This document shows, in pieces, positions 1,255-60,826 of a DNA stretch of 64,000 bases. The notes under the pieces were generated by a model that made no database searches, was not told where the DNA came from, and was given only the letters and a program-made list of their open reading frames with translations. Source of the DNA: Antedon bifida (Eukaryota > Echinodermata > Crinoidea > Comatulida > Antedonidae); assembly GCA_963402885.1 (NCBI GenBank), contig OY727094.1:31312501-31376500 (forward strand). Direction: 5' to 3'. Numbering within the stretch: the first letter of the stretch is position 1; the number at the start of each line of letters is the position of its first letter. The position numbers and the translations under genes are program-made.

Positions 1255-1464
1255 TAAACGTGGTTCCCATTAGAACGCAACGCAACGACGTATTGACGCA
1301 AAGTGCTGTATTGCGTAATCACAAGTGGAACAGAAGACGCAACAGTGCAATAAATATCGCAGATTTGATTTCACGCATGCGGGGGCAAACAATTATCGGA
1401 AGGGCATTTTCTTACGTTGCGTAGGTTGCGTTACGCTCCGTTGATAGTGGGAACCACGCTTTAT
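1255..1464. mobile_element. Family A MITE-like element, reverse orientation
   Basis: Reverse-complement copy of the 772-992 element (CGTGGTTCCCATTAGAACGC ... TAGTGGGAACCACGCTTTA), with the centre TTTCACGCATGCGGGGGCAAAC. Slightly degenerate. Confidence 0.8.
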
Positions 1465-4149
1465 AGCTATTCTAACGGACTAACATGCATGATTCGTATA
1501 TTATTAGTTACGCGTTTGATAAACAATATTGTGTGTGTGGTTTTGTTTTTGTGTGAATAACATAAATATTATATTATGTAATTGCTATTTGTAGTCATTA
1601 TACTGTACGAAACAAATTATAAACTTGAAAACAATTTATAGGGGTTGCCAGGTGATTTTGGTATTTACCCAAATCATCGCAACAACAATGTCGACGACTC
1701 CCTGTAATGTATGATAGTTTATAAGGATAACAATAGATGTGTTTGTTTATGATGATTCTATAGCATTAAATTTTCATCTAAAATATTTCTTGTGAAAGAA
1801 TTTCTATACTGCCTTTGTTGTGGTTTTTTTTCGTGCTTTTCGTGGAGGTGAACGCTTTGATAAATCGTAAACATCATCTTGTATGTAACGAACTTTTTAA
1901 CGAATGTTGAAGTGATGCCCACGATATTGTCCATTGATCTTCGATACAAAGGTGGGCCGAATCCGGCTCCTGTCGATATGACCAACGAACCATAACAACG
2001 GAATGTACCAACACACACTGGGAGACATTCTCACAAATCCACTAAGATATCTTGTCCTAAATTTTATTTGTCATTTTTGTTTCGTTTTGGTCCCGTGCTA
2101 CTTGCGAGGATTGAACGCGATTTGATGAAAATCTCCTCCTTTCGTGCCTTGTCGGTGAAAGGCGACTAATAACCACTATTCTCAACCCGGATTTACCCAA
2201 CAGATGTCAAAAGTGTTCATTTATCATACGTTTAATAGACACCAGTTTAACCACAACCAAAACATTTAGTATGGGGTTAAAAATGACATTTGTCCAATAA
2301 ACCGTTTTGGACAAGAAAAACAATTATTCCTCTGTGTATGACTTGTTTTTTCCAAAGTAAAATACTTCGAGCAGTAAATCTAAAGTTTTTCTGATGTTTT
2401 CTTTATGGCTGTTAAAAAGTGAGACTGTACCTGTAAGGTTGTTAGACTGAATAATATTATGGAGCTTACTCGATTCCTCGAAACGGATTCAATTCTCACT
2501 TGTAATCAATATCCAACCATTGTCAACTTGTTTGATAATTCCATCCGTTTTTTAATTATTGTTTTCTTTTCTGGAGAGTATAATGGAGGCCATTTACTCA
2601 CCGAGATTATGTCACTCGGATACTCTGCTTCAACTCATTGTCTTCCGCTGTAAACAAATAGATCCACCATGAACTAACTGTACCCCCGTAAACTTCAGCT
2701 TTTGTTCGCTTTCTTCTTAAAAACTTTTTTATTACACCTCTTCTTCCTCTTACTATAGCGACAACAAACAATCTATAGAACCTACGCTTAAACGATTTAT
2801 CTCCTGTCAAAGAACTATTATAACACATTATATGCACCAATTGCGACTAACAAATCGATTTAGTAAATAGAAACATAACAATTGAGTTCTACGCTTTTAT
2901 TAATGTTGTTTGTTGTCCGACGGAAATTGTTTTCTCTTTTACATCCGTAAATTGGTAATCTCCAGAAATCTTCTAAAATCCTTTTTATTCTCCGTACGCG
3001 TTTTAAATTGTTGAATTGTTTATCAATCCTTTTTTCAAAATTATTTAATGAAATATGCTATATATCATTTTGATTATAATATACCTGATACAATACAAGT
3101 TTATTTTATAATATAAGGTCTAGTATTGAAAATATGTGATTTAAATTTAGATTTATGTTCTATATCTGGAACATTATTTTATGATATATGAGAATGAGAG
3201 AACTATACAACCCGAAACAAAAAGTGGTCAAATATTTTTATTACGAATACGATATTGTTCAAATCGATCCATATAATCTATTTAGAAACAATTCCAAAAT
3301 TCTCTCACCAGCCAGTAATAGTTTGATATTAGAAAAGATAAACTTATGTAAGTATGGTCATCCGGTGGTGGAATGCGGAAGAATATTTAATGACATTTGT
3401 TGCGGTAAATCGGCCATGCGCAAGAGTTGAGACCTTAACCTGGTTACATTCTGGGGCAGGGTATATTCCCATTGCAGCAGTGGTACTCTTATAATGAAAA
3501 GGGTTAATCAGATAGAAACTTCCATAAATTCAATTTCCCAGGAGTGGGTTTAAATACTACACAGTAAATGTCTTTCCCATCAAAGTTTATTTTAACCGAA
3601 CTTCAATTTTTGTCAAAGTCGTTTACAAAGTCAACATACAGTAAATGTTGCTGCGCTCATGAAATCTAGTTTGAAATTGCTTATTAGCTTCAAGAAAAGT
3701 CACAATTAATAGTGTATCAAGGATACAGTTTGAAGACAGTCCTCATATTGGAAAAAGTGTGCACTTTCACCCGTACGTGATATTAAATCACGTTTTCCTA
3801 AACTTTTTCCTTCATACCATAATTTCAATTTACAAGGTAACTTTATTTGGCAATTTTTTGTAGGTTAAAAAAAAGATTAAGTTTATTTAGGTAGTGGTAT
3901 AATAATAGAACGATTAACCACCAGCGACCGTGACCTTTGACCCACGACTATGTCTAGACATTAACTATGTTAGGATACCAATTTGAAATGTTCAAATGTA
4001 ATTTTCCGATAATACATTTCTATAAAGGACCCCTGATATCCCATTAGACGAGACATATCGACGACGCTATTGGACCCTGTAACAATCAAGTTTGTTATTT
4101 AGTTATTATAGAAGTCCAGTCGCAATGTTTACACTTGACAACACTTGAC
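1465..4149. other. Gene-poor non-coding region
   Basis: AT-rich sequence with only short ORFs (for example 1758-2018 minus and 3188-3430 plus) that show no domain, no codon bias I can see and no paired splice sites. An isolated exon cannot be excluded. Confidence 0.5.
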
Positions 4150-6742: not shown

Positions 6743-7696
6743 ATGGATGAACATCTACTTACCAGGAATGTTACGTCTGACGAAATGCGAGATAATTTAA
6801 TGTTTGTTCTATCAGTGTATATGCCTTTGGCGTTATTTATTATTGCTGGGAACGCACTTGTTCTTTTTTTAATTCGACAAACTCGAAGTTTTGACGAACC
6901 GCAGTTTGTTTTACTAGGAAGCTTAGCGTTTGTGGACCTACTCACAGGAATTATCGCCGTACCAATGTATATGTGGGCTTGTATCTCACGCAGATCTCTC
7001 CATCTATTGAATTTTGATGAATTTGAGTTACAGTTCATACCTGTAAAAATATTTCTTTTAGTCTCCTGTTTGCATCTAGTGTTTATCACCGTGGATCGCT
7101 ACGTTTCTATAATGAAACCACTGCAGTATTATAAGCTAATGACATTCCCTAAAGTGTACTTTTCTATTGCTTCTTCATGGATTACAGGTTGTGTTTACGG
7201 TGTCATACAATTGTTCGGCGAAATGACACAAAACGAAGGTATTTTCTTCTGCTACAAGATGGATCCTCACTTGATTGAAGCTCAGCGTTACATGTCGTTG
7301 GCCACCGTGTCTACTGGTACAATTTTAGTCAGCATAATGTATTTCAAAATGTTTATGCAAGCAAGGAGACATAGCAAAAACATAGTCGGTATTCCAGTCC
7401 GCACACGGAATGTTGTTCGTAAAAGATTAAAAGCGGCTAAAACAAGCGCTTTGATCGTCGGTGCATTCGGTATTACGTTTTTGCCGTTTGCTCTGAGACC
7501 GATCGTATACTCAATCGGATACCAACGGTCAGGCGTGTATTGGTATGACCTGATTGCAGAAGTTCTGGTCACAATGAGTTCCGCTGTGAATCCTTTCATA
7601 TATGTTTGTCGTCTCCGGCGATTTTCACGTGCTCTGCGTCGTCTTTTTAAAAAATTCATGCCTATACCTTTAACATCAACAATCGAGACTTGTTGA
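6743..7696 (+). CDS. Class A (rhodopsin-like) G protein-coupled receptor, single exon
   Basis: A 317-aa intact seven-helix receptor. Visible class A marks are GN in helix 1 (IIAGNALVLFLI), LAFVDLLTG in helix 2, VDRYVSI at residues 117-123 (the DRY motif that couples to G protein), a helix 4 Trp (SSWITG), FLPF in helix 6 and NPFIY at 283-287 in helix 7, then a short basic tail. There is an N-glycosylation site NVT at residues 9-11. The helix 6 CWxP motif is changed to TFLP. The position that usually carries the helix 3 cysteine (25 residues before the DRY arginine) is Phe, so the canonical loop disulfide is absent. In known families this loss is typical of the melanocortin/S1P/cannabinoid (MECA-type) cluster, but the ligand cannot be assigned. 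The start ATG has a favourable context (AACAATGG), and an AATAAA lies 5 bp after the stop. Confidence 0.9.
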   Translation: MDEHLLTRNVTSDEMRDNLMFVLSVYMPLALFIIAGNALVLFLIRQTRSFDEPQFVLLGSLAFVDLLTGIIAVPMYMWACISRRSLHLLNFDEFELQFIPVKIFLLVSCLHLVFITVDRYVSIMKPLQYYKLMTFPKVYFSIASSWITGCVYGVIQLFGEMTQNEGIFFCYKMDPHLIEAQRYMSLATVSTGTILVSIMYFKMFMQARRHSKNIVGIPVRTRNVVRKRLKAAKTSALIVGAFGITFLPFALRPIVYSIGYQRSGVYWYDLIAEVLVTMSSAVNPFIYVCRLRRFSRALRRLFKKFMPIPLTSTIETC

Positions 7697-10355: not shown

Positions 10356-31865
<21,510 letters not shown>

Positions 31866-51868: not shown

Positions 51869-54800
51869 ATGGATTCCATATTGTACGGTCTTCTTGTTTT
51901 TGCGGTAACCGTGTGTGTTTCTGAAACTGATGTATGTGACGTTTGTAGCTGCAGCGCACGTCGAGGAGGAACTGTCGACTGTACAGGCAGGCAACTGACA
52001 GAGTTGATACAACCGATTCCAGGCAACACTAGTGTATTGTAAGAAGTTATAATATTAAGCTTGGTGTTCCACACAAACGCAATGCAATGACGTATGATGC
52101 GCAATGACGGGATTATCCAACGGCATCGAGATCTGTCAACTTGCGTTTCGCGTACGTCTTTGCATTGCGTCCTAGTGAGGAACCAAGCTTTAATACATTT
52201 ATTTTTTTTAATGATTTCATACACATTCAACCAGCGAAAAACTCGCCATGAAAATGGATGAACTATAATTGACCGTGCTTAGGCCTAAACTAAGTTTAAG
52301 ACTTAATAAGTGGGATAGAAAGAGTCGTGGATCGTAAGCCTGGCTCCCACTAGAACACAACGTAACGTAGCGACGTATCAACGCAAAGTGATGTATTGCG
52401 TAATCGAAAGTGGGAACGACGCAACACACTAGTGCTGTAAAAATCGCAGGTTTGATTTCACGCAGGCGGGGGCAAACACAATGATTGGAAGGGAATTTTC
52501 TTACGTTGCGTAGATTGCGTTACGTTGCGTCGCTAGTGAGAACCAAGCTTTAACGAGTAACGTTAACCAATACTAATGGTATGTTTGTTATATGATATAA
52601 AAAATATCAAATAGCAAAAGGAAGAGAAATGAAAAAAAAAACATGAAGATGATTTCCGATAACATTATCTGTCTCCTTAGAGCATCCGGAAAGTGTGTAG
52701 GCCGGATGTTTATTCATATTACTACAATAATACTTCATGTATTTGTATTTAAGATTGTTTTATGATTGTAAATGTTCATCTGGTTTGAAATCACAAATGA
52801 ATAAGTCCACTGATAAAAAGAATGGCTACAATATTGTATCAAATTGTTCTCTAGGCCTAGCTAAAGCTCTGTCTACTCTATCAAACTAGTTTGATAAAAA
52901 AGTGTGATGTACCTAAATATGGTAGTTGTATTCTCAAATATGGTAGTGATATGACATCATCATGTCCATATTTGGGCACATCACATGTTTTATAGTGTAG
53001 ACAGAGCTTTAGTTACCACTCACAATATTTTGTGTGAGTGGTGAAGTATCGGTATGCGGTACGTAGAACTGTTGCCACTATCGGTAACGATAATAATTAA
53101 GTATAATACACAATTGAAATACTTTTAAAAATTTAAGTTATTTAACTCTGATGTTGTAATGTAGTTTTTAAATCTATACAACGGCGCTATCAGCTGGATT
53201 CGTCAACGCTAAGCAGTAATTTATATTTCTACAGATACCTTGACAATAATTTACTGAGTAAATTGCCAAAGCTACCAAAACCAATCCAGTTGGTGTAAGT
53301 ATAAAAACTACAAGGTATAGTATATTGTTTTTGTTGATATAATGCCACTTTTGGGACAGCGGTATTCACGACGAAATAGAAGGTGCTGGAACACTGGGAA
53401 GGTTTTCCACGTTTTGCGGGAAAATAAAATAAAATGATGCTTTGAGAGTAGGCCTACGTATAATATACGATTTAATCATTTATAGTGTACTGAAACTGTG
53501 CTGTTGGTTTATCAGGATATTAAAGCAGCATAAATGTTCTCCTGGCGCCAAAACTGTCACAGGTCATGGTTTTAAAGAACTATTATCACAAGAGACTTCA
53601 ATAATGTTACACAGATTACAGTATTATGAAAGTAGTAATGATGCAGGGGTTTGTCTTTAAGTGCAGTTTGATTATGAGAAAGTTTAGGGTTCAAGTTCAG
53701 TAACAAAGCTCTGTAGTGTAATACCAGTATTTCTTATTAATAATCAATTCTATTATTTTTCAGAAGCGCTAAAAACAACAATTTTACCGAAATAGACCAC
53801 GTTTTCCAGAATCTAACATTTCTTTCAGTAATGTAAGATAAAACCTTTACCGACATTCTCATAATTAACATAATAACCAATATCGAAATCATTCTCACTC
53901 AATGCCATCATAATCACCAAACCAAGGAGTTATCGAATATATGAACTTATCAAAACCAAACTATGCACACACAACTAATTTTGTAACTTATACACTCGTC
54001 AAAATTTGCAACTTTCTCTAATAGATTTATTTTTATTTAGAAATTTTGAAAACAATAACATCAGAAAACTCAAGGATGATATGTTTAAAGGATCTGGACT
54101 GTTACGTGACATGTAAGTTGGCCTATTTAAACTCTTATTAGTTGACCAATGACAAGCGACAGTTCGAATAATCTATCACTTGTGATTGGTCAAGTCCCCT
54201 GCTTTGATTGTTTACGTCCTTGCGTTGCGTCTCTAGTGAAAACCAAGTACCATCTGTACCGATCTTTCCTCAATATAGTAATATGTGGTGAATGCTGGCC
54301 ACACGAAATAAAAAAATATACGACAGACTACAATTCCATAAACGACACTTTATATTATGTTTTTCATTTGTTCTATTTAGTAATTTAAATTCGAACCCGA
54401 TAGAAGAAATTGAACACGGTGCATTTAGAGGGGTACATATAAATACTGTGTAAGTCTAAATTAAATTAAACGTTAGTAACAAGAAAATGAATGTATCAAC
54501 TTTTCTATTGTATTCTGCTTCTGCATGTGTACAGTGAACAGAATGTGACGTTGTACACTAGAATGAATCACACTCTAAAACTGAGCCAGAATATACTGTT
54601 TTACAATAATTTCTTCCGAAACCTTTAAAGTACAGTACTTTAATATGCTTCTTTTTCATTCTTTTTCTTTTAGGAGATTATCGTACAACCATTTAGAGAC
54701 TTTGCTGACGGATGCTTTCACGTTGAATCAAATTGCCTCACTATACATGTTAGTAAAGTAATGATCAACAATTAATGTTTGTCCTTTTTCAACATACCTT

Positions 54801-57800
54801 TCCAATAATAATAATATTGATCAATATTAATTTTATTATTATTATTCAGTTTTTTAGATCATGGGCTATTAAATAGTTTATCATACAGAGCATTTGACAA
54901 CTGTCCAGTTGACACATCAATGTAAGTTTTAGACGAACTTGACAATGCACAGAGCGAAAGAGGGCGCGCTATTTATTATTTCGGCCCATTTAAACGTGCA
55001 GATAACTCGAGATTTCATTTAAACATTTTTCACGTTATTTCTATATCGATTTTCATGAAAATCGATAGGCATAATCTATTGATATATCTATTAACAAATC
55101 AGGAGAAAAAGTTGAGAATTGTGGACGTTATTGAGCAAACAACGTAGTAATACAAAGCGAAAAATTAGCATACGTGTTTTAATATTATTAATTTTATTTT
55201 ATATTAATAATTAATGTAATTAATTAAAAGCTGGCATAAAGATATTTACAAACGCTACGGTCATTTTCTGATAGTTGTTGGGTAAGACTTTTTAACCCAC
55301 ACTGCTGGTTGAGTTGAGTGTTGTATTTCAAAATATTTTATCCTGATTTCCATAGTTTTATGGATAACTGTAATTTGACAAGACTCGAAAAAGGCGTTTT
55401 TGATGGATGCAGTACTATCGGCACCCTGTGAGTAGATTTCATGGACTTTGTTATTCTAACAAGTTTTATTTATATCAAAACGAAGAGCTTAGAAGTTTCA
55501 ATAAGCAATATCGGAGGAAGGCGGCGGCAATGTTTATAATAGAGTCTATATAATGTATTGTATCTTAATATAATATCATATTTATTTGTTAGATCATTGG
55601 AAAATAACCAGATTTCATATATTGACGATGAAGCATTTGACAGTGTATGCATCATACATGGATTGTGAGTAATATCGCGGTTTTCTGATTCATACAACCC
55701 AACATCCTCCTCTAAAACAGGCCTTATTTAAAGTAGAATACTGTATACGGGTGCTGTATATGGAGCTGGGGTCCCATTAGGCATTTGAAATCGGCACTGC
55801 TGACTCTTATGGCAGCCCCTGCATCTAGTATCTGCCTCAGACGTATTGGCTTATGCCTCTCCTCTGGTTAAGGTGGGCACTGGACGAGAGAAGCCATTGG
55901 TCAATGTTGGTGCTTTAAACAGTCCTGGCTTAGTCATCATTCAGATGAATGTAAGACTAATTGACATTGTCGTTTACGACAGAAGTCGGCCATTAAAAAA
56001 TACATCTTTACAATTTCAGGTTTCTGACCAACAATATGCTTACCGAAATTTCACCAGCCGTTAGTATGTGTACAGTTACACAATTGTAAGTTCGGTTCTA
56101 TATTTAATTTTTCGATTATATTATTAATGTATGGTCTAGTTGTGCCCTAGAAGATTTGAAGCACACACGTGACTGAAATGGCAGTTTGAACATGTGTCTG
56201 CTAAATCCGAAAATGACTTTGTGGTAGGCCTGCTATCTTCTGAAATGAGATTGCCGCAATATTTGAAAAATAAGCTTTTCTTCGAGATTGAGTTCCTGTA
56301 ATGCTTATTAGCTCGTCACAGTAGACGGTTTAACATTTATATCTAGCTAATTTCTCAATTAATATTATAAGATTCGTCTACTACGTGTCATCATGGGCCA
56401 TCTTATAGCAGTTACTAATCTAGAATAGTAAGTTTACGATTTCTAAAAGTGTTAATCATTTTTCTTGAAGAATTCTCAGTTTCAACAGCATTGAAACACT
56501 GGGAACAGGCAAAATTGGTACCAATGCAACCGAAGGAGTCATGTTGTCTCAAAACAATATTTCAAGCATTGGAAAGGCGAATTTCAAGGGAATGACAAAT
56601 CTGAAAGTCTTGTAAGTTTTATTACTGTATTAAGTAGCTTATCAACCTTTACATGCCTCGACTAACTATTTAGTAACACTGTAATGGCCAACTGAGATAG
56701 CGTCGTACGACGAGGCCCGACGAAACGTCTCGATTCGTCAGTGCTGTCTGAGTTGAATCTCGACGAGACGAGTCGTCTTGAGATTGCTTCGGGCGTATTT
56801 TTTAGGTCTTCGTCGTAGCCTACGATGCCGTCTGAGTTGGCCTTAATTTAACTGGAACTCAACTCTCCCATCCTTTAACTCATGGAGGTGCGATCGCCGG
56901 AATAGTCGTAGGAAGCGTACGGTATAACGAACGGGTTATATATTAATTGAACATTTCTGTTATTTTTTTTTTCAGAATGATAGCCCATAATAACATCAGT
57001 AGTATTGATGACTATGCGTTTGATGACACCAACCTGTATGGAATGTAAATAAGCATTATGTTAACAAATGGAAGGTTACAATTTAAATCGAAACTCCCAA
57101 AAAGAGACTCGAATTGTAACTTAAATTTAATATCATAGAGCGTGACAAAAAGGCGTTTGATGCATGCAAAGAGAATGGAAGGGGTGTGGGTAGGTCTGAC
57201 CCAAGGCAAGACAGGCCGTCTTCGTTGCGATCCAAAGTAAATACGTTGACATTTTTCAATTACGTAAATAATTTATTGCTTTATTAACATTATCATTTAT
57301 ATTTTAGATATCTTTACGGCAATCAATTAAGTAGTATCTCGCAATTTGCTTTCAAGATGCCAGAAGAAAAACAACAAGCATATCTGTAAGTTAAATGATA
57401 TTGACTGTCTGTCCCTCTTATTATATTATATATAGCCTAGCATACAAGTAACAAATGGAAATATATTTTTACTTGTTACACTGTTATGGATTGTTTTAAT
57501 GCAATAATTCATGTACAATAGGTATATACACGACAACCCAATATATACAATTGATGAGGACAGTTTTGCAAGTTTGAAAATAGTTTACCTATCTTGTGAA
57601 CAGCTACACAAGTTGCCAAATTCGGTTGGCCAGAATGTTAATGCGTAAGTTCTGTCTGAAGCAAATTATATCTTTTATTTAAATTAAATTATTAATTTTA
57701 CCGAACCCATTCACTGACCGACAGTAGTTTTCTGTGTCAAGAGAAGACGAAACACATCTTAACTCAATATCCCACTGTGCACAGTGAATTAACATGACGT

Positions 57801-60800
57801 AGGCCTACTTTGGTATAAAGTTTGTATTATACGGTGGCGCTATTGCTCACAAACCCTTCCCATTATGCATTGTGCAATGACGTTTCTAAACCTTATATTA
57901 GAGCATTCGATTTGCGACGGCCGACGACACTGGTGGTGGCGCTATTGCTCCCAAATCCTTCCCATTATGCATCGCTTACGCAATTTGCGATAAACCTTAT
58001 TACTGGTAACTTGTTCGTTATGTGCTCATCAATTTAGGATGTGAAATTTATTTCCAGGACCTGTACATATGATGGAATCAACATTAAACTAAAGGGACTC
58101 AACAACGCTGGCCCTGAAAAAGAATCGGTAATACGTATCAGCGGCATTGAATGTCCCGGCAAAAAACAAATAGAGTGTACGTTTTGCCAAAAGGGCACGT
58201 TTGGAAATAAAGATGAACATCCCGTGTGTCTGAAATGCCCACCAGGTACGCAACATTTTGTAAAGCTTGGTTCCCATTTGGACGCAAAGTAAGGACGTAA
58301 GCCGTAACGAAGCTAATTGACCAATCACAAACGAAAGTTCAAATAATCCATCGCTTTGATTGGTCAATTCGCATGGATTGCGGCTTGCGTCCTTGCGTTG
58401 CGTCCTAGTGGGAACCAAGCTTTAGTCTAATCATGAAACTTATTCCTCCACGGTCTAACAATAGTATTGACTCCAAAAGTGTGGTTCTCACTAGGACGCA
58501 ACTCATGGACGTACACGCAGCGCAGAGGCAATGTTGGTTGTCATTTCTCAACTCGCTTGCGTTGCGTCTCGTCCTTGCGTTGCGTCTCTAGTGGGAAACA
58601 AGTTTTACGCACGTATAATCATAATATATATATTTATCTACGTTTTAGGCGGGTACTATCAAGATATGCTTGGCTTTGTAAAAACAGGAAACTACACAAC
58701 TGACTGCAAACGATGTCCAATTGGAACATTTTCTAAAGAAGCCGGGGCATCGTCAATGAGTAATTGCTTAGCTTGTCCTCTGGGTACTCAAACCGACTCT
58801 AACGCTAGCCTAAACGCTTGCGACTGCAGTTCGATGTTCCATCGATTTGACAGATTTGAGAAATGTATTCCGTGTCCTTCAGAAGGAGTAGATTGTTCTG
58901 GTGGATATCAACAACTACAGAATGGATACTGGTGGAGTTGGAACTTCACCAACAGCATTTGTTATGGTAATAACCATTCTGGAAGTCCTGCTGAGTATGA
59001 TGAGTTTATAGATGGGCTAAACAACAGCACATTCGATGTATCCGATCCAGAAGAGCTTAAGAACGTCAAATACCACGGCTCCATTCCATCTGTGCACAGA
59101 TGTCCCCGGCCTAAAAGCTGCATATCTAACGGGACATTGGCCGCGTGTGCTGAAGGCTACGAAGGCTGGTTATGTGTCGTGTGTAAAGAAGGTTATTACA
59201 CATTATTTTACGAATGCCACAAGTGTCCTCATTCTACAATCCTTCTTTTGATGTTCAGTGTCGTCACACTACTCGTTGTTTTGATTGGAACATTAACTTT
59301 CAAATATCAAACTATTTTGCGTCAAAAATATGATAAACTGAATATAAAATCTGTAAGTATGTACGTTAAAATTGCCATTAATTATTATCAAATTATTGGA
59401 ATTTTGTCAGTCAGAAGAAACGATTTATCTAAAACAAGTGGCGGGAATTTATTCATCTATTTGGATATTGTAGGCTACATCAATCTTCTCAGCCCAAGAT
59501 GTATTTTTTACGGCTTCGCCTGGAATGCATACAAGCAAGCAGTACTATCAATATGTGTTCCTGTTGTTATTATACTCTTAGGATGCGTCGCTGTGATTAT
59601 CGTCACTATAAAACGAAAACGGAATGTTGATTTCCCAGTTACCAATGGTTTAGTGTGCTTTATCGTGTTGCTACTTCTCTACTTTACTTATGCAAACACA
59701 TGTTCGGGAATCATGGCTATAGGACCGTGGGCGTATCGTACGCTTAACGTGACGCACGACGGAAGTTGCACGCGGACGATGTTGAAAATGGATTATTCCA
59801 TTATCATACCCAATGACACAGGCACAAATGCCTACCTAATACTTTGTTATTTTTCTTTTCTGTACGTGATTGGTTTTCCGGTTTCAATTGGGTGCATTCT
59901 GTATTATGTTCGCCGACGTCGCCGACCTCCTGTTGGTAGATATCATAGTTATCAACAGCTACTGAGCACAGACTGTTCCAATATTGGTGGAGAGAACAAT
60001 GAAGAACATGCATTTAAAAACGATGCCATTGTGCAAGATATCTTAAACTCTATCGATTATGAGCAGACAGAGCAGCAAAATCAACAGCATGATCAGAAAC
60101 AGCGATGTCAATGGCCGCAGCAGCACCAAAAGCAAGAACACCATCTGTCGTTCTTTTACGTCGAGTACACTCCGCGCTGTTGGTTCTGGGAAGTTATTGA
60201 GATATTTACAAAAGCAGCTCTAGCGCTGATTGTCAATTACGAAAACTATTCAGACGTTGATATAGCGTACTCTGTACTGGTGATCGTTTGCCTCATTCTT
60301 CTCCATATCCACTTTCGACCAATCAAGAACAAATTTGCACAACGATTTCAGATCACTACATTGGTCTATGTCGTTCTAAACTTGTCGGTGAAATCAATTT
60401 TGAGTAGGGAAGGCATTAGCAGAACCAGCGAAACCGTGACCTCTGGCGTGTTGACCTGTATCAACGCTTCTGTCGTTGTCATTGCCGTTTGTGAGTATTG
60501 CATTCTTTTCTTTATTTAAAAAAAATACAGATATCAACAGAGGGCGTGCTATTTAACATTTCGGCCCATATTGAAGATAGCGATAACTCGAGATTTTAAT
60601 AAGCTTTTGTGACGTCACCAATGTATCTATTTTAATCAATAGGTAAGGTCTTGGTATATATAGCTATGTGCAAAATATTCAGGACAACTTTGTTTAAGAC
60701 GTAATTTATAACATTAAGTTTTCTATATTTTCAGTGGTGTTCGTCCAAACGTTTTTCGGAGGTTTAATTCGAAAGAAATTTGCTTCAGTCATCGTTTCAT

Positions 60801-60826
60801 GCTTTTGCGATCCAAAACAAGCATGA
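51869..60826 (+). CDS. LRR - cysteine-rich - polytopic membrane receptor-like protein (17 exons)
   Basis: Exons: 51869-52038, 53235-53294, 53764-53832, 54041-54112, 54381-54449, 54674-54748, 54850-54921, 55356-55427, 55593-55664, 56020-56085, 56471-56611, 56976-57044, 57308-57385, 57522-57644, 58058-58245, 58649-60490 and 60735-60826. All junctions are GT-AG and in phase, giving 1109 aa. Order: signal peptide (1-19), Cys-rich LRR cap (VCDVCSCSARRGGTVDC), about 13 leucine-rich repeats mostly one per 66-78-nt exon (residues 57-440), two ephrin-receptor-like (GCC2/GCC3) Cys repeats (CTFCQKGTFG, CKRCPIGTFSKE; 450-520), a Cys-rich juxtamembrane block (GYEGWLCVVCKEGYY), then about 8-10 helices (roughly 661-1092). 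A Gln/His-rich cytoplasmic or loop segment lies at about 937-966. The membrane part lacks DRY and NPxxY, so it is not a rhodopsin-type LGR. Likely a surface receptor; ligand and signalling unknown. Confidence 0.88.
52056..52192. mobile_element. Family S element in LRR gene intron 1
   Basis: TAAGCTTGGTGTTCCACACA at the left, CCTAGTGAGGAACCAAGCTT at the right. It begins 17 bp after the exon 1 donor. Confidence 0.85.
52335..52552. mobile_element. Family A element in LRR gene intron 1
   Basis: TAAGCCTGGCTCCCACTAGA at the left, GCTAGTGAGAACCAAGCTTT at the right, reverse orientation. Confidence 0.9.
52862..53011. mobile_element. Family B element in LRR gene intron 1
   Basis: TAAAGCTCTGTCTACTCTAT at the left, TATAGTGTAGACAGAGCTTT at the right. 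Slightly shortened right arm. Confidence 0.9.
54138..54248. mobile_element. Partial family S element in LRR gene intron 4
   Basis: GTTGACCAATGACAAGCGAC through CTTGCGTTGCGTCTCTAGTG and AAAACCAAGTA. The left terminal repeat is missing. It begins about 25 bp after the exon 4 donor. Confidence 0.75.
54960..55016. repeat. Intron repeat, copy 1 (LRR intron 7)
   Basis: GAGGGCGCGCTATTTATTAT then TTCGGCCCAT and GATAACTCGAGATTT. It matches 60540-60597 in intron 16 of the same gene. Confidence 0.75.
55665..56019. other. LRR gene intron 9
   Basis: A 355-bp intron. The short ORF reading MAYASPLVKVGTGREK is not supported by a domain. It may be a fragment of an unknown repeat. Confidence 0.4.
56682..56845. 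mobile_element. Family G inverted-repeat element in LRR gene intron 11
   Basis: TGGCCAACTGAGATAGCGTC then GTACGACGA at the left; TCGTCGTAGCCTACGATGCC then GTCTGAGTTGGCC at the right. The middle contains further inverted TCGACGAGACGAG words. Confidence 0.75.
57836..57998. mobile_element. Family F-related element in LRR gene intron 14
   Basis: GGTGGCGCTATTGCTC.CAAA then CCTTCCCATTATGCAT occurs twice in direct orientation (57836 and 57936). It matches the arm of the hairpin at 18398-18555, and the right end reads GCAATTTGCGATAAACC. Confidence 0.75.
58261..58424. mobile_element. Family S element in LRR gene intron 15
   Basis: TAAAGCTTGGTTCCCATTTG at the left, CTAGTGGGAACCAAGCTTTA at the right. 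It begins 15 bp after the exon 15 donor. Confidence 0.9.
58477..58609. mobile_element. Second family S element in LRR gene intron 15
   Basis: AAGTGTGGTTCTCACTAGGA at the left, CTCTAGTGGGAAACAAGTTT at the right. Together with the element at 58261 it fills about three quarters of the 403-bp intron. Confidence 0.85.
60540..60597. repeat. Intron repeat, copy 2 (LRR intron 16)
   Basis: GAGGGCGTGCTATTTAACAT then TTCGGCCCAT and GATAACTCGAGATTTT, a direct match to 54960-55016. Confidence 0.75.

Follow-up and report, generated by a model that had tools for sequence, protein, structure and literature searches.

A leucine-rich-repeat receptor-like gene with ephrin-receptor-like cysteine repeats and a non-rhodopsin polytopic domain, and its multigene family in the crinoid Antedon bifida

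The gene considered here lies at positions 51869 to 60826 of a 64,000-nucleotide stretch of Antedon bifida contig OY727094.1. This whole stretch is called the window, and its features are on the forward (+) strand unless stated otherwise. As the initial annotation had proposed, the gene appears to encode one receptor-like protein in which leucine-rich repeats (LRRs) are followed by ephrin-receptor-like cysteine repeats and a non-rhodopsin polytopic domain. It is also a member of a multigene family, a point absent from that annotation. The protein is probably a cell-surface recognition receptor from a locally expanded and undescribed family, with an LRR arm, a cysteine stalk and about nine membrane helices.

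The Pfam search of the full protein agrees with this architecture. LRR_8 was matched over six stretches (E-value 7.5e-28), Ephrin_rec_like over two (3.1e-9), and DUF7630 (PF24633) at 3.4e-8, above its cut-off (33.9 bits vs 27). No credible Pfam family was found for the membrane part, either in the full protein (E up to 1) or in the membrane part searched separately (E up to 10). Sixteen family members were also scanned (E up to 1; 25 of the 29 matched families listed). Matches of PqiA, CbiQ and TssN to the helices of the window protein (best 0.0068), and those confined to single or paired members, for example PDR_assoc (0.0044) and DUF7631 (0.0039), were below cut-off, not shared, and judged to be due to chance. 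The TNFR-like model of ELAPOR1 matches the cysteine part in 10 of the 16 members (best 0.00077) and is below cut-off in the window protein. NCBIfam gave no match.

Comparison by sequence with the PDB placed the LRR part closest to IGFALS, LRIG1, LRRC15, LGR4 and TLR3 (among 60 of 75 matches), a likeness that extracellular LRRs in general would give. Exon 16 alone matched EphB2 at 0.23, and a family profile including the cysteine part matched TNFRSF21 (0.013 and 0.04) and EphB2 (0.18), in the cysteine part only. The profile of the membrane part gave only chance matches, the best being coagulation factor VIII (E 1.3). The family profile retrieved no relatives from viral contigs (101 pattern matches) or from bacterial and archaeal genome contigs (85 pattern matches). 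No paper describing the combination of LRRs, cysteine repeats and a polytopic domain was found among those listed by a literature search that left most subscription journals outside, and none was found that names DUF7630, to which Pfam gives no function. The earlier statement that the combination has no described function thus holds for the literature searched. The DUF7630 model of Pfam implies that databases contain related sequences, so the family is undescribed in that literature rather than unseen.

The span and the 17 exons of the initial annotation were reproduced by splicing at consensus sites, from the ATG at 51869 to the stop codon ending at 60826, and the joined protein has 1106 amino acids. 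Exon 1 (51869..52038) carries a signal-peptide-like N-terminus and an LRR N-terminal cysteine cap, named by eye (CDVCSC...VDC), and ends in phase 2. The lengths of exons 2 to 14 are all multiples of three (60, 69, 72, 69, 75, 72, 72, 72, 66, 132, 69, 78 and 123 nt), so their introns are in phase 2 as well. The LRR exons had been described as near-uniform, 66-78 nt long and in one phase; the shared phase was recovered, and the size range fits 10 of the 13. Exons 2 to 10 (53235..56085), recognized by LRR_8 and by one fixed rule that picks out LRR exons in phase 2, each hold a single LRR and lie at 53235-53294, 53764-53832, 54041-54112, 54381-54449, 54674-54748, 54850-54921, 55356-55427, 55593-55664 and 56020-56085. 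Exon 11 (56471..56611) holds two LRRs. Its start is probably at 56471 (141 nt), 9 nt before the 56480 of the splice model (132 nt), because the repeat (LILSFNSIETL) is then regular and the exon agrees with the double-LRR exon of 135 nt in the C9 paralogs; the protein would then have 1109 amino acids. Exons 12 (56976..57044) and 13 (57308..57385) each encode an LRR, and the array ends with the last LRR in exon 14 (57522..57644). Between 51869 and 58060, the same rule found 13 exons on the + strand and one on the - strand. In the 51,868 bases that precede the gene it found one on one strand and three on the other, and 20 shuffled sequences gave 0-3. The LRR exon array exceeds chance.

The array is followed by exon 15 (58058..58245), with a linker and the first cysteine repeat, and by the main exon, exon 16 (58649..60490), with an Ephrin_rec_like repeat, the DUF7630 block (CPRPKSC...GYEGWLCVVCKEGYYTLFYECHKC; 59095..59226) and the membrane helices. 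The polytopic domain, delimited by hydropathy, covers 59242..60489. Exon 17 (60735..60826) holds the end of the last helix, the C-terminal tail and the stop codon.

Exon 16 was searched against the animal's own genome (315.6 Mb), where it had 42 matches. After pieces of one copy were joined into one locus, these correspond to 21 loci, the window gene and 20 further copies, so that the family has at least 21 members in this genome. The window copy is on C7, one copy is on C8, six are on C1 (12.57-12.66 Mb), and C9 has two clusters, with four copies at 7.09-7.25 Mb and nine at 10.49-10.91 Mb. Exon 16 is 38-40% identical between the window copy and the others aligned (15 copies), with 28% for C8. 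DUF7630 serves as a family marker in this genome: all 20 of its matches fall inside main exons of the family, with one C9 copy under threshold, and it was found in all 16 members scanned. Ephrin_rec_like has at least 49 genome matches, many of them outside the family. In a tree of 16 copies, the C1 (99/99) and C9 (99/98) copies form separate clades, and the window and C8 copies are long single branches, placed with little certainty relative to each other.

The joining of the LRR exons to the membrane exon was examined for 11 of the 20 other copies, in the 8 kb upstream of each. An exon like exon 15, ending TGYCCWCCWG|GT in phase 1, is present in all 11 stretches and has the same split-codon donor as exon 15 itself, whose last base is the first of the codon following CPP. 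Its phase-2 acceptor passes the filter in 10 of the 11 and fails in L041. The acceptor of the main exon (AG|Gn before GG) is kept in all 19 copies examined, window included, and 10 of the 11 stretches also contain similar LRR exons further upstream. The claim that the LRR exons and the 58649-60490 exon belong to one gene is supported by these comparisons: separate transcripts are very unlikely because the paralogs share both the order and the split-codon junctions. Two observations count against the receptor-family reading. L044 (C9:7252000-7260000) has no LRR exon within 8 kb upstream, its LRR exons having perhaps been displaced by an insertion or lost, and 3 of the 21 loci look disrupted. 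The latter suggest birth and death within the arrays. The disrupted main exons are C1:12580030-12581615 (two frames), C9:10607817-10609106 (one stop) and C9:10641483-10643110 (pieces). The L044 upstream stretch matches that of its neighbour L042 over the last ~1.4 kb only, around the exon-15-like exon.

The order of the repeats was compared in the membrane-proximal half of the arrays, the paralog arrays having been covered only in part at their 5' ends. Given as exon lengths (nt), the order is 72-66-132/141-69-78-123 in the window gene and 72-66-135-69-75-72-60 in L042, L046, L047 and L048 of C9, except that L048 has 63 instead of 66; L041 and L049 show the later part of the C9 order only. In the C1 copies, 72 and 69 are followed by a double exon and then by 69, 69, 72 and 60, and C8 has a double-LRR reading followed by 69-75-72. 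The eight single-LRR exons compared occur in all three C1 copies; two of the LRR exons had seemed to be missing from some of them in a pattern search, but alignment places both in all three. The initial annotation had proposed that the layout allows repeats to be added or lost by exon shuffling. This finds weak support at best. Frequent shuffling as the source of repeat number is disfavoured in the membrane-proximal half because the repeat order is collinear across copies. In favour of some local change, the counterpart of exon 14 in the C1 and C9 paralogs is a pair of exons of 72 and 60 nt. In L040 (C1), one LRR exon is partly repeated, in degenerate form, at 2147-2207 of the reverse strand, which hints at local exon duplication.

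The number of helices and the topology of the membrane part were predicted from hydropathy and loop charge. The window protein has ten candidate membrane segments in all, within the range of 8-10 given earlier. Averaged over 16 members, hydropathy indicates eight helices, near 59242-59298, 59356-59412, 59545-59601, 59656-59712 and 59845-59901 (predicted helices 1 to 5), and near 60259-60315, 60352-60408 and 60433-60489 (predicted helices 7 to 9). A weak helix 6 (60178-60234) is predicted from the single-sequence profile, and an amphipathic segment lies near 59449-59505. We prefer nine helices, with the N-terminus outside and the C-terminus inside, because eight would put the last loops against the positive-inside rule. 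In the nine-helix model the loop charges are +2.1 (in), -0.1 (out), +2.7 (in) and -1.9 (out), followed after the long loop by +0.6 (in) and -1.6 (out), values that for the most part agree with it. A sequon in the predicted outer loop near 59750, present in 13 of the 16 members, fits an outer N-terminus; two sequons kept in 15 of the 16 fall inside predicted helices and would go unused. Several results weigh against this model. The family average has eight helices, not nine, and helix 6 (the WFWE segment near 60178), with a hydropathy of 1.56 in the window protein and 1.41 in the C8 copy, reaches just 0.63-0.93 in the other 14 members. Single members show 6-9 segments above 1.3, one of which, in L024, falls in the cysteine part. 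The raw charge of the stretch with the long loop and helix 6 is -8.0, despite the poly-Arg in the window protein, and the AlphaFold model of the window protein's membrane part is uninformative (pLDDT 41.5, pTM 0.27). The Gln/His-rich loop described earlier, which also contains the poly-Arg and is predicted to be cytoplasmic (59902..60150), is present in the window protein. It is absent from the 14 aligned C1 and C9 copies, and the long loop of C8 differs in sequence.

With about nine helices, the membrane part might also be a TRP-like or polycystin-like ion channel, which would make the protein an LRR-gated channel. This reading is tentative, but it is the alternative that survives best. Charged and polar residues are conserved in or near the helices, with Q247, N349, E514 and K521 (P0001 numbering) invariant, and in fungal FLC proteins, too, an ML-like domain at the N-terminus is combined with a TRP domain, PF06011 (PMC9600462). 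Against a channel, neither PF06011 nor another channel family was matched by Pfam in the full protein, the membrane part or, among the families listed, the 16 members, and the membrane profile had no solved-structure match beyond chance. Kinase families were likewise not matched in the protein or, among the families listed, in the paralogs; a distant relation to PF06011 would be missed by HMMER.

The rate of sequence change differs between the parts of the protein. It was expressed as the ratio of nonsynonymous to synonymous change (dN/dS) in pairs of copies, which are non-independent and come from few genes. In the C1 trio, dN/dS over the eight single-LRR exons is 1.08, 0.92 and 0.69, compared with 0.37, 0.31 and 0.23 in the membrane part (Fisher p 0.11, 0.030 and 0.031) and 0.41, 0.49 and 0.25 in the cysteine part of exon 16. 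A subset of LRR exons with the double exon gave 1.64, 1.03 and 0.99, the first resting on 2.5 synonymous changes, and another subset 1.43, 0.79 and 0.68 (p 0.055-0.11). The C9-A trio has LRR values of 0.81, 0.83 and 1.10. Between the C9 clusters, the membrane part is at 0.18 and 0.22, with p 0.039 in the one pair tested for LRR vs membrane part. Moreover, variable positions are in excess on the predicted concave face (one-sided Fisher tests throughout), with 14/40 vs 15/137 elsewhere in C1 (eight exons, p 0.0007), 8/30 vs 8/101 with six exons (p 0.011), and 13/35 vs 24/119 in C9-A (p 0.036). These comparisons are an indication, not proof, that the LRR arm changes faster than the membrane part, clear in the C1 array and weak in C9-A. 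Several values call for caution. The membrane part of C9-A is itself loosely held (0.49, 0.76 and 0.66), its cysteine part is tighter (0.25, 0.43 and 0.28), and its LRR and membrane parts do not differ significantly (p 0.28, 1.0 and 0.26). LRR dN/dS between the C9 clusters is low (0.23 and 0.29). The concave-face excess is weaker when only exposed positions are compared (C1, six exons, 8/30 vs 5/59, p 0.026; C9-A, 13/35 vs 18/67, p 0.20; pooled, 21/65 vs 23/126, p 0.024), and relaxed constraint would give a similar pattern.

An adhesion or self-recognition surface protein, with the membrane part merely an anchor, would agree with the loosely held membrane part of C9-A and with the presence of LRRTM, FLRT3, LRIG1 and chondroadherin among the PDB matches of the LRR part. 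Such a role seems unlikely in view of the length of the membrane part and of its dN/dS in C1 and between the C9 clusters, which would point to more constraint than an anchor needs.

A G-protein-coupled receptor (GPCR) of a known class, either LGR-like with diverged rhodopsin helices or of the glutamate class, is very unlikely. LGRs share the LRR arm, and the ectodomains of LGR4 and LGR5 are among the PDB matches of the LRR part; glutamate receptors with ephrin-receptor-like domains are described from choanoflagellates, and also from other close relatives of metazoans, but not from metazoans themselves (PMC12716839). Nevertheless, 7tm_1, 7tm_2 and 7tm_3 were not matched by Pfam in the protein, the membrane part or, among the families listed, the 16 members, whereas a rhodopsin-type GPCR open frame in the same window (6743-7693), used as a control, scores 4.7e-34 with 7tm_1. 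The reported absence of DRY-like and NPxxY motifs was confirmed, neither being found in the helices; the loose pattern [DE]R[YFWH] matches only DRF at residue 530, outside them. The prediction is of eight or nine helices rather than seven, although in some single members no more than six or seven segments pass the cut-off. Finally, an artefact, with exons joined in error or taken from two adjacent genes, deserves almost no credence, although L044 could be cited for it. Of the 11 paralog stretches, from three chromosomes, 10-11 show this order with its split-codon junctions, and shuffled sequence does not approach the 13 LRR exons.

If the protein is a recognition receptor, as preferred here, the secreted N-terminal LRR solenoid would be the recognition arm, and its concave sheet would probably form the binding surface. 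The GCC2/ephrin-receptor-like and DUF7630 modules could form a disulphide stalk coupling ligand binding to the helix bundle. This bundle of about nine helices, with its C-terminus inside, might carry the signal across the membrane by ion conduction or a non-canonical route. The family would have grown by tandem duplication, the LRR arm being freer to change than the membrane engine. By analogy, microbial or chemical sensing seems the likeliest setting. Animal LRR receptors are known either as single-pass proteins with signalling tails or as proteins with rhodopsin-type seven-helix domains, and an LRR arm on an ephrin-receptor-like stalk and about nine helices would, if true, be a further route from LRR recognition to a signal. 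The role of the family can be tested by way of its tandem arrays and of how the LRR arm varies, and DUF7630 provides a handle for relatives. A bolder proposal, rather doubtful at present, is a new animal class of receptors for pattern recognition or chemosensation. Their LRR arm would diversify and would directly gate a nine-helix protein, either a channel or a GPCR-independent transducer, and the class would have expanded in tandem like invertebrate immune or chemosensory receptors.

Several other features were noted in and around the gene and its paralogs. A dispersed repeat around AGTGGGAACCAAGCTTTA occurs at 17 sites on both strands between 771 and 58607 of the window (up to 3 mismatches; 0.04 expected), including five pairs, - then +, about 145-205 bases apart; it is probably an element resembling miniature inverted-repeat transposable elements. 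Four of its sites are in introns of the receptor gene (52535, 58261, 58407 and 58590). A clathrin heavy chain gene is represented by exons at 13868-29735 (+), with matches to Clathrin_propel, Clathrin-link and Clathrin repeats. Among the paralogs, open frames in or near introns (L040 6767-7159 and L041 929-1558, reverse strand) resemble what we take to be the GIY-YIG part of a Penelope-like element. Simple-sequence tracts reading poly-Asp directly follow the exon-15-like exon in the C1 copies L040 and L043, and a C8 intron holds a minisatellite with a ~26-base unit (L039 ~1378-2547, reverse strand).

Compared with known systems, the protein may act in the manner of an LRR receptor, but the features tested place it outside the LGR, TLR, Eph and FLC families. 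With LGRs it shares an extracellular LRR arm and a multi-helix membrane domain, and one repeat per exon in phase 2 is also usual for LGR genes; it differs in having eight or nine predicted helices, a GCC2/DUF7630 cysteine stalk, and neither 7tm_1 nor class A motifs. With Eph receptors, only the cysteine repeat is common, as Pfam matched no ephrin-binding domain or kinase in the full protein. The choanoflagellate glutamate-class GPCRs resemble it in combining Ephrin_rec_like cysteine repeats with a polytopic domain (PMC12716839), but here there is an LRR arm, more predicted helices and no 7tm_3 match. Fungal FLC/TRP-like proteins also place an N-terminal domain ahead of a polytopic domain (PMC9600462), but without a sequence match, and LRRs and cysteine repeats here replace the ML-like domain. 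Proteins with DUF7630 are linked to the family by the domain itself, common to every member scanned. The ectodomains of TLR3 and of variable lymphocyte receptors, both among the PDB matches, share the LRR recognition arm; unlike them, the Antedon protein has no TIR domain matched by Pfam in its full length and would cross the membrane with several helices rather than in a single pass.

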